The translations under genes were made by a program, and so were the position numbers. Positions 53,406 through 61,408 of a stretch of 64,000 bases of DNA are shown here, piece by piece (position 1 is the stretch's first letter; every line of letters starts with the position of its first letter). This DNA is from Cyanobium sp. N.Huapi 1H5 (GTDB taxonomy: Bacteria; Cyanobacteriota; Cyanobacteriia; PCC-6307; Cyanobiaceae). The notes beneath the pieces were generated by a model, which saw only the letters and a program-made list of their open reading frames with translations, was not told the origin of the DNA and did not search any database. The stretch is taken from assembly GCF_024345535.1 (NCBI RefSeq), contig NZ_JAGQBH010000002.1, positions 372,001 through 436,000 on the forward strand, read 5' to 3'.

Positions 53406-54197
53406 TTACGGCTTCGCAACCCGACGCCATTCCTGGAAGCGATCGAGGGCGGCACAGAGATCCACGAAACGCAGGGGCTTGGAGAGAAAGTCGTTCATTC
53501 CTGCGGCTTCACACTCCTGCCGATGGGAGCTGAAGGAATAGGCCGTCAAGGCGATGATGTACACGTCCGCATAACCCTCGCTACGTAGTTGTCGGGCCGC
53601 TGAGATGCCATCAAGCTGCGGCATCTCCACATCCATCACCACCAGATCAAAGGGCTCGCTTCGGACGCTCTGCAGGGCGGCGTCGCCGTCACCCACCAGC
53701 CGGGCCGACAGATTCAGCCTGGCCAGCATCAGCTCCAGCACGCGCTGGTTGACGCGGTTGTCATCGGCCACCAGGATCTTCAGGCCAGGATCAAAACCCT
53801 GCGGAGAGCCGCTCTGGACAGGCTTGTGCTGGCTCTTGGAAGCCACCGCGAAGCGCAGGCGAACGGAAAAACAGCTGCCCTTGCCGAGGCTGGATTCCAC
53901 CGAGATCTCACCGCCCATCAGTTGGCAGAGCCGGGAGCAGATGGCCAGGCCGAGCCCGGCACTCTGGCGGGTCTGCTCAGGGTCAGCGTGCCCGACGAAC
54001 TCCTCGAAGATGAACGGAAGGGCGGCGGCGGAGATACCGATGCCGGTATCGGAGACACGCAACAACAGGCCGACCGCATCCGACGCCGTCCGGGTCGCCT
54101 CGACGACGAGTCGTATCTCCCCGTGGTTGGTGTATTTGCAGGCATTCCCCAGCAGATTGAAGAGGATCTGACGCAGCTTGAGATCATCACCGATCAA
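53406..54197 (-). pseudogene. 3' part of interrupted hybrid kinase (HATPase-receiver)
   Basis: A 263-residue continuation in the same frame as the gene upstream, after a TAG at 54200-54198. It contains nearly all of the HATPase domain (N box N-L-L-G-N-A-C-K-Y, D-T-G-I-G-I, A-G-L-G-L-A-I-C) and a complete receiver (V-A-D-D-N, Asp 189 in V-V-M-D-V-E-M-P). TTG at 54197 could start independent translation, but no ribosome-binding site is evident. Either the kinase is a pseudogene, or it is read through, or it works as two chains. Confidence 0.75.
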
Positions 54198-55022
54198 CTA
54201 TTTCGGCACCTCCGCTGACAGGCTGAGCCGCAGATCAAGCTGCCGAATGGAAGCCTGATGCTGAAACAGGTTCAACACGTCATCGAGCAGATGATGGAGA
54301 TCAAAGGTTCTGGGGTTCAACGCCAGACGACCGGTCTCGATCTGGGAGATATCGAGAATGTCGTTGACCAGATTCAGCAGATAGTCACCGCTTTCATGGA
54401 TGGTCTGGATCATCTCCCTGTGGCGTGCGTCCATCGGACTGGCCAGCAGCAGGTCGCTCATCCCGATCACGGCGTTGAGCGGGGTACGGATCTCGTGGCT
54501 CATCGTGGCCAGAAAGCGTGTCTTCGACTGGCTGGCCGCCAGGGCTTCATCCCGGGCCTGGCGCAGCTCAAGGGTTCGCTGGGCCACCTGCTGCTCCAGC
54601 TGGTCCCGTGCATCGATCAGCCTGTCCTGGGCCTGGACGATCGCACTCTGATCCCGGAACGTGAAGACAAGGGAGGGCCTGCTCGGGACATTGACGGTGG
54701 CCCACGACACCTCGATGACCCGCCGGGGTGGGGCGCTGGCGAGCTCCCAGGTGGTGGTGCCCTGGGGAGCCTCCATCCAGAAGGGCTGGCCGGCCTGGGG
54801 CTCGGCCGTGGCCTGGGGCTGGCGGTCGGGAAGGATCCCGCTCAGGGAACGGCCCAGGCACTGAAGGCGTGGGAGGCCCACAAAGCGATCGAAGGAGGCA
54901 TTGGTCCACTCGACGATTCCATCGAGATCGGTGAAGGCGAGAGCTTCATCGACGGCCCCGAGGGCCGCCTCCAGCCGGCCGAGGGTGGTGCGCAGTTGGG
55001 CGACGAGCTCCAGATCGGCCAT
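54198..55022 (-). pseudogene. 5' part of interrupted hybrid kinase (PAS-HisKA), ends at in-frame TAG
   Basis: 274 codons: a PAS sensor (about 20-125), a coiled coil (about 125-165) and a HisKA dimerisation domain with phospho-acceptor H176 (S-H-E-I-R-T-P-L-N). It ends at TAG (codon 275) just before the HATPase N box, and the reading frame continues without shift into the next feature. The domain order across the stop is the normal one, so a single nonsense change (for example CAG to TAG) explains it. Start at 55022, seven bases after the PAS gene. Confidence 0.8.
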
Positions 55023-55029
55023 CCCGGAC

Positions 55030-55377
55030 TCAGGTGAGCGGACGCAGGGTCGCCGCAAAGACCCAGCCATCCCCTCGGCGTTCGGCGACGATGAAATGCT
55101 CTGAATTGATGGCCTGTTGATCCTTGCAGATCGTCATCAACTCCAGGGGATGGTTGAGAATCTGGGATTCTCCAACGATCTGAAAGCGTGAGAATCCCAG
55201 GTGGTGGGCATCCCGGAAAGAGTCGGGAAGAATCATGGAGAGGGACTGGCCCTTCAGATCCTCAAAGGTCCATCCATAGGTGGTTACAAACAGGTCGTTG
55301 ATCTCCACGATGCACCCGTCACGATCGGCGGCAACGAAGGGCAGGGATTTCTGGCGGAGCTCTTCAATCGTGACCAT
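55030..55377 (-). CDS. Stand-alone PAS domain protein
   Basis: A protein of about 115 residues that is a single PAS domain: V-A-A-D-R-D-G-C-I-V-E-I-N-D, then Y-G-W-T-F-E-D-L-K-G-Q-S and I-L-P. It lies seven bases before the interrupted kinase, suggesting it once supplied, or still supplies, a signal input to it. Start at 55377 or 55410. Confidence 0.75.
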   Translation of the reverse strand: MVTIEELRQKSLPFVAADRDGCIVEINDLFVTTYGWTFEDLKGQSLSMILPDSFRDAHHLGFSRFQIVGESQILNHPLELMTICKDQQAINSEHFIVAERRGDGWVFAATLRPLT

Positions 55378-55925: not shown

Positions 55926-57098
55926 TCAGGAAAGAATGGCTCGGATCGCCGAATAATCATCGGTGAACGGGGCATTGGCTGTGATGTCGTGGATCTGGGA
56001 AAGCAGCCGCTCGAGGCCATCGTCGTCCGACAGCAGGCCCCGGCACTGCTCCGCCAGTTGCATGAATTCCGGCAGCGTCCCCATCGCACCATCGGGCCGG
56101 GGGACTTCGTAGAGACCGTCGCTGTAGACGAGCAGACACCCCCCCTCGCCGACCTCCAGGCTTTCTGTGGCATAGGTGGACTCCTCGAACAGGCCCACCG
56201 CCATGCCCTGGCCCCTGAGCCAGCGGCTGGGGAAGGCTCCCGTGCGGCTCCAGAGCAGGGCAGGGGGGTGGCCGGCGCTGGCGTAGCGCAGGGTCCTGCT
56301 GGAGAGCTGGTAGACGCCGTACCAGATGGTGAGATAGCGGCCCTGGTGGCGCTCCATCTGGAAACCGCTGTTGAGGGCCTGCAGCACTGCGGCCGGATCC
56401 CGCAGATCAACGGGCAGCGAGCGTGAGCGCAGCTGGTTATGGACGGAGATGGAGGGGAACGCCGCCGCCAGGCCATGGCCGGAGGCATCGGCGAGATAGA
56501 GGATGAAATGGTCCGCATCCAGCCAGAAGAAATCGAAGGAATCGCCACCGAGCTCATGGGAGGGCTCGAAGCGGGCCTCCACGCGGACGGCGCCGGTGAG
56601 GGCCTCGGGAAACAGGGAGCGCACGTAGCTCGCCGCCTCCTCCAGCTCCTCATCCAGACGGGCCTTCTGCTGCCGCAGCTCCTCGGCCAGATCCTTGAGG
56701 CGTTCGTTGGCCTGGTGCAGGCGGATGCCGGAGCGGACCCGGGCCATCAGTTCGTCGGGGTCCACCGGCTTGCTGAGGAAGTCGTCGGCGCCGCAGTCCA
56801 GCCCGCGGACGCGATCCTCCACCCGGGAACGGGAGGTGAGCAGGATGAAATGGGCCGACTCCAGGGAAGGGTCGGCCTTGCAGGCCCGGCAGACCTCCAG
56901 CCCGTCCATGCCGTCCATCAGCCAGTCGCAGAGGATCAGGGTGGGAGGGCTGAGGCGCGCCTGCTCCAGGGCGGCCTCGCCGGACTCCACCATCACGACC
57001 CGGTAACCCTGGGCGCTCAGACGGGCCTGGAGCAGGCGGGAGTGGATGCGGTCGTCATCGACGAGGAGGATCGTGGTGGAGGCGCCGCTGCTGTCCAT
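55926..57098 (-). CDS. Response regulator-PP2C (RsbU/SpoIIE-type) phosphatase
   Basis: A 390-residue output protein. Receiver at 1-125 with D15/D16, phospho-acceptor Asp 58 (L-I-L-C-D-W-L) and Lys in S-K-P-V; a coiled-coil linker (about 130-165); and a PP2C-type Ser/Thr phosphatase with Mg-binding D186 (G-G-D-S-F-D), D204 (A-D-A-S-G-H-G) and a final D-D. It probably dephosphorylates the STAS protein when its receiver is phosphorylated. ATG at 57098 chosen. Nearly abuts the HNOBA kinase (12 bases). Confidence 0.93.
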   Translation of the reverse strand: MDSSGASTTILLVDDDRIHSRLLQARLSAQGYRVVMVESGEAALEQARLSPPTLILCDWLMDGMDGLEVCRACKADPSLESAHFILLTSRSRVEDRVRGLDCGADDFLSKPVDPDELMARVRSGIRLHQANERLKDLAEELRQQKARLDEELEEAASYVRSLFPEALTGAVRVEARFEPSHELGGDSFDFFWLDADHFILYLADASGHGLAAAFPSISVHNQLRSRSLPVDLRDPAAVLQALNSGFQMERHQGRYLTIWYGVYQLSSRTLRYASAGHPPALLWSRTGAFPSRWLRGQGMAVGLFEESTYATESLEVGEGGCLLVYSDGLYEVPRPDGAMGTLPEFMQLAEQCRGLLSDDDGLERLLSQIHDITANAPFTDDYSAIRAILS

Positions 57099-57109
57099 CG
57101 GGGGCCGGG

Positions 57110-59641
57110 TCAGGGGGCTGTGGGGCGTCGCTGCCGCAACGCCTCGGTGACGCGGCCAGCCTCGACGAGCAGCTGGTCGATTCTCTGCTGGGGCCAGGAC
57201 TCCGGGTCGGATCGCAGGGACTCCTCCACCGCTCCGCATAGGCCAGCCAGACCCAGCGCGCCGAGGCTGGCACTGGGGGAGCGCAGGGAATGGGCGGCGG
57301 CGATCATGGCCGGCGGGTCGTGGTACTGGTGAGCCATCACCACCGCCGACACCAGGCGCATCGCGTCCTCGAGAAACAGATCGATGAGCTCCTGGAGGAC
57401 GGCTTCGGAGCCATCGCCAAGGGACTGCTCCAGCTCCTCCCAGGCACCGGCGTCGATGGGGTCCTCCCCGCCCGCCCCTGCCGGGGCCTCGGGTTGGTCG
57501 CGGGGTGGGTAGTGCTCCAAGGCGTAGGTGAGCTGGGCGGGCACGATCGGCTTGGCCAGGAAGTCGTCCATGCCGGCCTCGAGGCAGGCCTGGCGATCCT
57601 CCGGACGGCCATGGGCGGTCATCGCGATGATCCAGGGTTGCACGAACGGGGCCGGAAGCCGGCGGATGGCCCTGGTGGTGGCGTAGCCGTCCAGCTCCGG
57701 CATCTGCACGTCCATGAAGACGACGTCGAAGGGGGAGGCCTGCAGGGCCGCGAGGGCCTCGGAGCTGGACGCCACGGCATCGGCCCGATAGCCCAGGCGC
57801 TGCAGCAACAGCAACGCCAGTTGTCGGTTCACGGGGACGTCATCGACGACGAGCAGCCGCAACGGCAGCCGATCGGCGAGTCGCTGGGGGCCAGCCTCCG
57901 GGGCAGGCGGGCGGGGCAGGGGTGGCGCGCTGGAGAGCCGCCGCGCCGCCGGGCTCTCCAGTTGCTGCAGCAGGGCCCCTCGAAGCTGGCCGAGTCGCAC
58001 GGGCTTGGTGAGCATCACCGGCGGCGTGTCAGGCAGCGAAGCCAGCTCAGCAACCTTGCAGCGATCGGCCAGGACGATCCACGGGCGCATGCGCAGCAGG
58101 GGATCCCGCAGAAAGGCTGGCGGGGAGGCATCCCCTTCGCAGCCGAGCAGACGCCCATCCAACACCACGGCACCAAGGCCGGCATCGGCGATCTCGGACT
58201 GGGCCACCCGCATGGGGAGCTGACAGAGGTCGGGGGCGATCACTGACAGCCCCATCCAGCCCAGCTGTTTCTGCAGCAGCCCGCGGAGGGTGGGATTGGC
58301 GATCAACAGCAGCACCGTGGCCGCTTCCGGCGCGGTGACCGCCAGGGCCTCGGGAGTGATGGAGGCTGGGGCGGAAGGATCGAGCGTCAGCAGGACGGTG
58401 AAGGTGAAGACACTGCCGACCCCTTCCTCGCTGGTCAGGCCGATCGTTCCCCCCATCAACTCGCACAGGCGACGGGTGATCGCCAGTCCAAGGCCGGTGC
58501 CGCCGTAGCGGCGGGCCGTGGAGGGATCGGCCTGGCGAAAGGGTTCAAACAGCTGGGGAATCAGGACCTCCGACACGCCGATGCCGGTGTCCCGGATCTG
58601 AAAGGTGAACAGGCAGGGGACTGGCTCGCTGGCCGCTGCGGCCTGGGGCTCCGCCGTCACCGTGACGACAATCTCCCCCTGGGTGGTGAATTTGACGGCA
58701 TTGCTCAGGAGATTCCAGAGGATCTGGCGGAGGCGGGTGAGATCGCCGATGACGGCCGTGGGCAAACCGGGTTCGACGTCCAGGATCAGTTCCACCTCCT
58801 TGTCCTGCAGGCGGGACACACTCAGATCCAGGGCTTCCTCGATGCAGATGCGCAGGTCGAAGCGTTGGGCATCCAGCTGCATGGCACCGGATTCGATCTT
58901 CGAGAAATCCAGGATGTCATTGATGATCGTGAGCAGGGAGTCGGTGCTGCTGTTGATGATCTCGACATATTCACGCTCCACAGGTTCCAGCTGGGAGTCC
59001 TGAAGAAGCCCTGCCATGCCGATGATCGCGTTCATCGGCGTTCTGATCTCATGGCTCATCGTGGCCAGAAACGTATCCTTGGCGGTATTGGCCGCTTCTG
59101 CAGCCTTCCGGGCGGCATCCAGCTCGGCGTTGAGCGCTGAGAGGCGCTGCGTCGATTCCCGCAACTCCGCTCGCTGGGCTGTCAGCACGTCGTTGAGCTG
59201 CTGGCTTTCAGAGAGCGCCACATTCCTGGCCTGCAGCAGGAAAAGAAAGTCAACCAGGGAGTCGTGCAGGGGAAAATCATTGATCTTCAGCCCGAGGGAC
59301 TTCAGATCCTCCAGTTGCAGCAAGCAGGGGGTGCCGACGAACAGCAGTTGCTCCACCGCATCAAGACCACAGATCTGGCCCTTCAGCTGCAAGGCAATCC
59401 GGTCGGACTTGAGAATCACATGCCGATCTGTGCAGTCACTGAGGCTGGGGAAATCCATGGGCACATCCGGCCTCAGAAGCTGGAAATGATCATCGAGCGG
59501 CTGCCCCAACAGATCCGGATCTGGAAGGATGCGACGGAGGACTGAGCCAGCCGAACGGATGGTCAGCTCACGGTCAACGACGAGGTGAAACGGGAACAGG
59601 GGATCAAGCAGATGGTCTGGTAACGGCACGGACATGACCAT
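57110..59641 (-). CDS. HNOBA-domain hybrid histidine kinase with Hpt
   Basis: An 843-residue soluble kinase. Residues about 5-150 are an HNOBA (haem-NO-binding-associated) domain, seen as F-P-F-H-L-V-V-D-R near 16-24, L-K-G-Q-I (86-90) and P-L-H-D (124-127), as in soluble guanylate cyclase. Then a coiled coil (145-190), HisKA with H197, HATPase (N box 310-319, G-T-G-L-G-L 381-386), a degenerate receiver (about 440-560; acidic pair replaced by A-N but D495 and K546 kept), a full receiver with D644 and Lys 697, and an Hpt domain with H784. It can complete a phosphorelay internally. Start among closely spaced ATGs at 59641 and 59635. Confidence 0.93.
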
Positions 59642-59657
59642 CAAAAGCGACGTATCG

Positions 59658-60251
59658 TCATTCGTGCTTCAAGCCGCTATCGAGAAGAGCAGGGGAGGAT
59701 GGCGAAGCAAGGCGAATATGGAACAGGTCCGTGGCATCACCCTGGTCACGGGAGGCGACCTGGTCGACCGCTAAAGGGCTACGGAAACGTTTGCCGAGGC
59801 CATGCAGCAGGCCGGTCACCATCGGGGCCAGGCCTTTCCGCTTGGAGCGGTACTCCAGTTGCATGGACGCATCGGCACGGTGCTCGCAACGGAAGGAGGG
59901 CGGCTGCAGTTCAGGAAAGGCCAGGGCGGCGCGGGCGTAGAGATTGTCGAGGTGATCCAGGAATTCCGGCAAGGTTTCGCCGGTGCTCTCAAGGAGCTGC
60001 TCGTAGCCTTCCGTAGCGGTATAGGTGATCCAGTACTCGCCGAAGGCCTGCATGATCTGTTCACTCGAGAGGCCAAGTTCCTCGGTGGCCGCCGCCACCA
60101 GCCGATGGGTCACATCATCGGTGTAGGCCGTGTAGCTGGAGAAGAAATCAAGATCCTGAAGATCGGCCCGCTCCTTGATGCGTAGCCAGATGTCCTCCCC
60201 ATGGTGGGTGGTGACCATCTGCTGGATCGCTCGGTTGACAAGCCCGTACAT
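59658..60251 (-). CDS. hnoX: H-NOX haem-sensor protein with Tyr at the proximal ligand position
   Basis: A 197-residue H-NOX (haem nitric oxide/oxygen binding) protein, full length for the family. M-Y-G-L-V-N starts at 60251. The haem-propionate motif Y-R-S-K-R (134-138) and P-S-F-R-C (118-122) are present. In the alignment to soluble guanylate cyclase (L-D-A-L-H), the position of the iron-binding His105 is L-D-N-L-Y: Tyr 105 (codon TAC at 59939-59937). H100 is the only nearby His. It lies just upstream of the HNOBA kinase, the usual partner, so signalling is expected but haem ligation is doubtful or different. Confidence 0.9.
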
Positions 60252-60304: not shown

Positions 60305-61408
60305 TCAGGCCTTGCGGGGTAACTGATCGAGGCACCACTGGAAATCACAGCGAACCTGCGCGCGGACAGGCTCATGGGCGAACAGGCGACCCCGGGTGGC
60401 AAGGATGGCCGGCAACATCGACGCCGGGTTCAGGCTGGCGAGATCACAACCGGGCAGTTCGAGCCGCCGGCAGAGGTCCCTGCCCTTGTTGGAATAGTGG
60501 AGATGGTAAGGAACCCGTCCAGCAGCCAGTGACAGAACGGCGGTGTGAAAGCGCACCGCAATCACGATGTCCACCAGGGAGAACAGGGCCATGGCGAGCT
60601 GCCAACTCGGCACGGCCGGATGGTCGACAAATGGATTGAGGATGGCTGTGTCGGGGGCGCGGGCCTGGATGGCGGCGGCCACATCAAGATCATTGTCTGA
60701 ACCGTAGGCGCCTGATTGGATCAGAATGACGGGCCTGAGGCCGGCACCGGAGAGTTGAAGACTGAGCTCGGCTATCCTGGTGACGAAAGCGTCATTGTCG
60801 TGGCCGTACATGGTGTCAAAGCCACGCACGGAGAGAACGGCGGCCTGGGCAGGATCAATGGCCATGCGCTCCAGGCACTGCCTGGCCGTAGCCTCGGCCA
60901 GAGGGGAACTCTCAAGGACGAAGGCAATGTCGTACGACAACCGCGCGGGCACCCCGGCGGCGCAGAGCCGCTGGTGACTTTCCGCATCCCTCACACAGAC
61001 AGCCGCCAGACGCTTGAAGTAGCGCTGCAACAGAAAGAAGCTGAGGCCGTGACAGGAGCGAGGAATCGACTGGCCGAACAGAAACGTGTGACGGGGGCTA
61101 TGCCTCAGTTCGGCCAGGTTCATGAGGAACGCCTTGGTGACGAACCATTCCCGAGAATTGTTGAAGATATCGCCCCCCACACTGATGTAGGCCTCACAAT
61201 TCCTGGGCCGTTCAGGCAAGAAGGTGACGCCCAGTGTGGAATCAGGCCGTTCATCCTGAACGCAGCCCACCAGGTCCACACCCGGCAAAAGCTTTCGAAA
61301 CGCGCTGTAAATGGCTGCATCCCCCAGATTCAGGGTGCTGTAGGCGTTGATCAGGCCAATGCGCACGGGAGGTGTCAGAAGAAAGAGACAGTTCTGGTAA
61401 CGCTGCAT
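60305..61408 (-). CDS. Polysaccharide pyruvyltransferase-family protein
   Basis: A 367-residue protein of the WcaK/CsaB-type family, adding ketal pyruvate to sugars. Visible: R-I-G-L-I-N-A-Y-S-T-L-N-L-G-D-A-A-I near the start, a V-G-G-D-I-F motif, and A-V-R-F-H-T-A-V-L-S-L-A towards the end (the R-F-H of the family). It is the first gene of the polysaccharide region and separated from the next by 236 bases. Confidence 0.85.
   Translation of the reverse strand: MQRYQNCLFLLTPPVRIGLINAYSTLNLGDAAIYSAFRKLLPGVDLVGCVQDERPDSTLGVTFLPERPRNCEAYISVGGDIFNNSREWFVTKAFLMNLAELRHSPRHTFLFGQSIPRSCHGLSFFLLQRYFKRLAAVCVRDAESHQRLCAAGVPARLSYDIAFVLESSPLAEATARQCLERMAIDPAQAAVLSVRGFDTMYGHDNDAFVTRIAELSLQLSGAGLRPVILIQSGAYGSDNDLDVAAAIQARAPDTAILNPFVDHPAVPSWQLAMALFSLVDIVIAVRFHTAVLSLAAGRVPYHLHYSNKGRDLCRRLELPGCDLASLNPASMLPAILATRGRLFAHEPVRAQVRCDFQWCLDQLPRKA

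Follow-up and report, generated by a model that had tools for sequence, protein, structure and literature searches.

The window analysed here, a stretch of 64 000 nucleotides from Cyanobium sp. N.Huapi 1H5, carries a gene for a stand-alone H-NOX protein, hnoX, in which position 105, the place of the proximal haem His, is occupied by Tyr. In sensors of this kind NO binds the ferrous haem, the Fe–His105 bond breaks and the H-NOX domain changes its shape. The gene raises the question of what a protein with Tyr at this position can still do: whether it holds haem through a new ligand, works without haem, is a sensor on the way to being lost, or owes its Tyr to an error. Breakage of the Fe–His bond by NO is thought to trigger signalling in both guanylate cyclase and H-NOX proteins, as described in PMC9914232 and PMC12329717; an exception reported in the latter is Caulobacter, where the kinase is not inhibited by NO-bound H-NOX and is switched by oxidation of Cys.

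The hnoX gene and its neighbours

The coordinates of the features discussed are reported in table 1. The hnoX open reading frame has exactly the coordinates of the initial annotation, which gave no strand, and lies on the minus strand. It is complete, starts with ATG and encodes a protein of 197 residues beginning with MYGLVN; over the same interval, frame 1 of the plus strand contains two stops. The product matches the Pfam family HNOB (E=3.9e-49), and a search of NCBIfam assigned it to no family. Its best solved relative is Alr2278 of Nostoc (E ~1e-70), with which residues 1–181 align without a gap. An AlphaFold2 model, built from an alignment of 26 sequences, has a mean pLDDT of 85, and its 11 best PDB matches in Foldseek are all Nostoc H-NOX entries (TM 0.89–0.90 by query length, rmsd 1.1–1.3).

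Table 1. Positions of hnoX, its haem-pocket sites and the neighbouring genes in the window.
Feature	Positions	Strand	Basis
hnoX, stand-alone H-NOX (HNOB) protein, 197 aa, Tyr105	59658..60251	minus	ORF, Pfam, alignment, model
Codon 105, TAC (Tyr), replacing the proximal haem His codon	59937..59939	minus	alignment, census
Y134-x-S136-x-R138 haem-propionate motif, intact	59838..59852	minus	sequence, alignment
Partner hybrid histidine kinase HNOBA-HisKA-HATPase-REC-Hpt, open frame	57110..59644	minus	domain search; directly downstream of hnoX
REC-SpoIIE (PP2C-type phosphatase) response regulator	55926..57239	minus	domain search, comparison
Second hybrid histidine kinase, same cluster, in-frame TAG at 54198-54200	53406..55070	minus	comparison with relatives
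Polysaccharide pyruvyl transferase-like gene, upstream of hnoX	60305-61408		

From its adjacency and from known systems, the HNOBA hybrid kinase is likely the target of the H-NOX protein. The true start of the REC-SpoIIE gene probably lies near position 57098, since the N-terminal part of the open frame runs into the kinase gene and shows poor conservation in the related genome G006. Of the 20 related regions fetched, 14 have hnoX (whole or as remains), kinase and SpoIIE lying together, and six carry a more distantly related H-NOX whose HNOBA partner is short. This distant type was seen in the same family at loci L035, L037, L052–L054 and L056 (genomes G008, G017, G176, G227, G185 and G234), where the H-NOX gene is followed by short HNOBA frames of 334–406 aa in place of the hybrid kinase. 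In G007, which belongs to the genus but gave no match to hnoX, locus L124 holds an open frame of 1185 aa that matches HNOBA. FIST proteins, which are NosP-like NO sensors, were considered as a replacement of H-NOX; they match in 40 of the 42 genomes of the genus, irrespective of hnoX, and are uninformative on this point.

Position 105 and the haem pocket

The initial annotation had read Tyr in the place of the proximal haem His and called for a comparison with other cyanobacterial H-NOX proteins. That reading is correct: Tyr105 pairs without a gap with the His of the LDNLH motif of Alr2278, and the codon is TAC, the relatives whose codon was printed having CAC or CAT. The comparison was made as a census of frames found by profile search (E 1e-5) over fetched loci. 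The samples comprised 26 contig loci, 42 genomes of the genus (12 matching), 400 of the family (22 with HNOB), 386 of the phylum (28 with HNOB) and 217 of one Nostoc-type family (99 matching; one fragment of 67 residues was left out), and identical sequences were merged because the samples overlap. Almost all the sequences are cyanobacterial, with one from a MAG labelled Bacteroidia. Among the 139 distinct full-length sequences (165 aa or more), position 105 is His in 137, Tyr in the window protein and Asp in one congener (G032). The 12 shorter sequences, which bring the total to 151, have His in eight cases and Thr in one broken piece, and three do not reach the site. Given these counts and the gap-free pairing, Tyr105 does not stem from misalignment and is not a variant that occurs commonly. 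The Asp105 sequence of G032 is identical to that of the MAG Kiruna bin-04642 (loci L008, L034 and L069).

Apart from this residue the pocket positions checked are preserved. The propionate-binding motif is intact, as first annotated, with Y134, S136 and R138 all present, and Trp74, Asp102 and Pro118, which we likewise take to line the haem pocket, are retained. Position 140 is Gly, and the distal Tyr of the oxygen-binding type is thus absent. At columns conserved in more than 95 per cent of sequences, the window protein departs once (H105Y), its sister in G006 never and the G032 protein four times. What is unusual here is Tyr within an otherwise intact haem pocket, H-NOX proteins without the proximal His being already known. 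A literature search among papers outside subscription access, on cyanobacterial H-NOX, guanylate cyclase H105Y and H-NOX tyrosinate, found no report of a Tyr-ligated H-NOX.

Of the marks of an H-NOX sensor, the protein thus has the HNOB sequence family, the fold and an adjacent signalling partner, and has Tyr for the proximal His ligand. On its sequence we class it as an H-NOX homologue and not as a haem–NO sensor.

Several other features of the protein were considered. His100, proposed at first as a stand-in ligand, is also present in relatives that have His105 (e.g. G006, G016 and G077); it thus did not arise as a substitute, and, lying five residues before position 105, it would not be expected on the haem-facing side. 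Sensing by Cys oxidation or by a zinc–Cys site was rejected, as Cys122 is the single Cys of the 197 residues. Loss of Pro44 is not tied to loss of the ligand, 17 full-length proteins with His105 being likewise without it. Thr44, Arg125 and Lys139 are common to the window protein and the Asp105 protein of G032; gene conversion between the two strains was rejected, since identity is not raised in windows of 30 codons.

Selection and lesions in hnoX across the genus

In trees of the neighbouring genes the window genome and G006 fall together (support 82 for the kinase, 81 for SpoIIE and 94 for the transferase), and G003 is next outside. G019 and G032 form a pair in the same three trees (support 100, 77 and 100) and are not paired in the tree of the second kinase. 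Branch models were fitted with our own codon likelihood program, with one rate across sites and p values uncorrected for the number of tests. The hnoX codon set has 12 taxa and excludes the gene of G242 and the broken ones of G003, G019 and G088; the SpoIIE set has 14 taxa, without G005, and the transferase set nine.

The omega of the window branch of hnoX is 0.14 on the gene tree and 0.16 on the kinase topology, with likelihood intervals of about 0.07–0.30 or 0.07–0.34 (interpolated from a grid), against a background of 0.074–0.075. This rise is not significant (p=0.10 on the gene tree and 0.06 on the kinase topology), and omega=1 is rejected (2dlnL 21.4 and 17.9; p=4e-6 and 2e-5), the branch average being blind to what followed the substitution. 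Purifying selection on the branch average implies that H105Y is recent or that the protein still matters; if hnoX evolved neutrally after H105Y, an arithmetic estimate would confine the change to approximately the final quarter of the branch. The initial impression that the remaining fold is constrained is borne out by these values and by H105Y being the sole departure at strongly conserved columns. Neither the neutral evolution nor the disrupted frame of a pseudogene is found in hnoX, but these measures would not reveal function that was lost very recently. The window branch is not raised in the kinase (omega 0.109) or in SpoIIE (0.044).

Of the 12 genomes of the genus that match H-NOX, two (G008 and G017) have the more distant type and ten, the window genome included, have the operon of hnoX, kinase and phosphatase. 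Six of the ten have His105 in an open frame (G004, G005, G006, G011, G015 and G016). The gene is altered or broken in the other four: Tyr in the window genome, Asp in G032, a one-base frameshift in G019 (locus L070) and a remnant in G003 (L071). In G088, from another genus, the match is limited to the first 81 residues of hnoX (L075). The broken copies each lie beside an HNOBA kinase, and the kinases of G003, G019, G032 and G088 align nearly from end to end. Kinase omega is 0.156 in G003 and 0.143 in G088, against about 0.147; these near-full-length kinases are not relaxed, and the kinase thus outlives the sensor. It is relaxed in G019 (0.34) and G032 (0.39); for G005 the branch length ran to its limit once the branch had an omega to itself, and that value is meaningless.

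The Asp105 case of G032 looks like decay, partly depending on the topology used. The omega of its hnoX is 0.16 on its own tree, where omega=1 is rejected, and 0.41 on the kinase topology, where it is not; the latter value, the relaxed kinase, a stop codon inside its REC-SpoIIE gene and the four departures at conserved columns are what suggest this reading.

The window genome has a further lesion in the cluster. The TAG codon of the second hybrid kinase is Trp in all 11 relatives with printed rows, and none of the eight relatives read from the likely start has a stop within the stretch covered. The window branch of this gene has an omega of 0.073, which is not raised, so that the stop looks recent; given this low value, it may be unrelated to the change in hnoX. 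This genomic context, with the broken hnoX copies of congeners and the stop in the second hybrid kinase, favours decay of the sensor.

Explanations of the change and known systems

The explanation that we prefer, and that we hold to have somewhat better than an even chance, is that ordinary NO sensing is disabled in a protein that is either free of haem or holds ferric haem through Tyr, and that the sensor is starting to be lost. The haem state, the loss of the NO response and the direction of evolution are what we infer. The ancestor would have been a cyanobacterial H-NOX of the Nostoc type with His105, and the switch to Tyr would most likely be recent. The ancestral protein would have controlled the adjacent HNOBA hybrid kinase and, through it, the flow of phosphate to the REC-SpoIIE phosphatase. 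Once Tyr stands at position 105, a normal five-coordinate ferrous haem held by His could not form; the protein would be poor in haem or, like haemoglobin M, would bind ferric haem through tyrosinate, and in both states NO would cease to gate the kinase in the usual manner. The kinase and the phosphatase stay under selection, presumably running by themselves or on other inputs.

That control by NO is being lost, and is at an early stage of loss, seems most likely because the sensor is being lost in related genomes while their kinases persist. The near-universal His105, the hnoX lesions in four of the ten operon genomes and in G088, the decay-like state of G032 and the stop in the second kinase all speak for decay, as does the finding in PMC9914232 that guanylate cyclase no longer binds haem once Phe or Cys replaces its His105. 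Against it stand the open frame of hnoX, the rejection of neutrality, the absence of change at any other strongly conserved residue, the retention of every other haem-pocket residue checked, and the unrelaxed kinase and SpoIIE genes. Moreover, other proteins are proven to use Tyr as a haem ligand, and Tyr, unlike Phe, is able to ligate ferric iron.

A working Tyr-ligated H-NOX, in which a natural switch of one axial ligand has made a redox or haem sensor, still in control of the kinase, out of an NO sensor, is in our judgement unlikely. Tyrosinate would hold ferric haem, and reduction, NO or loss of haem would break the Fe–Tyr bond, mimicking the rupture of Fe–His; we know of no other H-NOX that has an oxygen-donor ligand, and this one, if real, would be the first. 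The branch-average purifying selection agrees with such a function, as do the other strongly conserved residues, all kept here, among them the propionate motif that is lost in the plasmid homologues with Pro or Arg described below. Chemical precedents are the Tyr-ligated haem of Sfh5, with a low potential of -330 mV as reported in PMC7462610, and haemoglobin M, in which Tyr for the proximal or distal His stabilises ferric iron according to PMC11368142. However, the occurrence is single and isolated, the sister G006 having His, residues 65–124 carry along the sequence no lineage-specific change besides that at 105, and both congeners and the second kinase show decay.

We consider it quite improbable that the kinase retains a haem-free H-NOX as its structural or constitutive partner, possibly still responding to free protoporphyrin. 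Precedents would be the Paracoccus group and the alpha subunit of guanylate cyclase, the latter with an H-NOX domain that we take to be an old haem-less one, diverged much further than the Tyr105 protein. Homologues without the proximal His are numerous in nature according to PMC8738867, and guanylate cyclase in which His105 is replaced by Phe or Cys is described in PMC9914232 as unable to bind haem while keeping its basal activity and its stimulation by protoporphyrin IX. Among 12 plasmid-borne homologues from outside the cyanobacteria (21–28% identity to the query, at which the alignment is less sure), the ligand site is His in six, Pro in five and Arg in one. The six with Pro or Arg (25–28% identity) have also lost Y-x-S-x-R, which is intact in the Tyr105 protein and argues against the analogy; Trp74 is missing from His and non-His homologues alike and does not discriminate. 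Some congeners without most of hnoX keep the kinase, and a structural role is thus not essential there. The Pro and Arg homologues (L240–L244 and L250) lie on plasmids of Rhodobacterales, and the two annotated ones precede GGDEF proteins.

We give the least credence to an error of sequencing or assembly, or a mutation acquired in culture by this one isolate. It would take a single transition in one genome, one genome per species having been sampled, and at a distance of about 5.7 kb there is another lesion that one transition would explain. The initial annotation had tied this reading to His in all close relatives, which holds for ten of the 11 in the hnoX codon set, the other having Asp. Against an error, the genome is 99.92% complete and 0.16% contaminated in 12 contigs, and a comparison of the 64-kb window with G006 flagged 8 of 34 filtered G006 open reading frames in the window genome and 8 of 38 in the reverse direction. 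Four of the former eight were flagged by stops, of which the three inspected were judged to be shadow frames or to have the stop upstream of the likely start; the second kinase is the one gene judged really interrupted, and the other four frames were flagged by small indels only. Within this comparison, an error-laden assembly is not supported.

If hnoX is decaying, the locus is a snapshot of a gas-sensing operon that loses its sensor before its kinase, and ligand change, frameshift, remnant and truncation would be stages of that decay across related genomes. If the protein is functional, the Fe–His bond, regarded as central to signalling by H-NOX and guanylate cyclase, would be replaceable by Fe–Tyr in nature. 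Either way, the protein is a His-to-Tyr variant made ready by nature in the well-studied scaffold of the Nostoc type.

Among known systems, the redox-sensing H-NOX proteins of the Vibrio cholerae and Caulobacter type have a zinc-binding Cys cluster, whereas the window protein has one Cys. As given in PMC8738867, four H-NOX clusters have the proximal His without exception, and fewer than 10 per cent of the fifth, the Paracoccus denitrificans-type ‘Group 5’, have it, Pro mostly taking its place. The window protein likewise lacks this His but differs from that type, marked by Pro and a lost propionate motif, in having Tyr, the intact motif and an HNOBA kinase as neighbour. The His105 mutants of guanylate cyclase beta1 (PMC9914232) resemble it as an H-NOX fold without the iron-ligating His, but were made in the laboratory. 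Haemoglobin M, as described in PMC11368142, is a natural His-to-Tyr change at a haem-ligating position; the analogy is a chemical one, the fold being unrelated and the protein an oxygen carrier in a disease-associated form rather than a sensor. The closest counterpart is Alr2278 of Nostoc sp. PCC 7120 (PDB 2O09 and 4IAE, among others), which has the same fold, with 56% identity in the Foldseek alignment, and shares the propionate motif, Trp74 and Gly140; at position 105, Alr2278 has His and the window protein Tyr.
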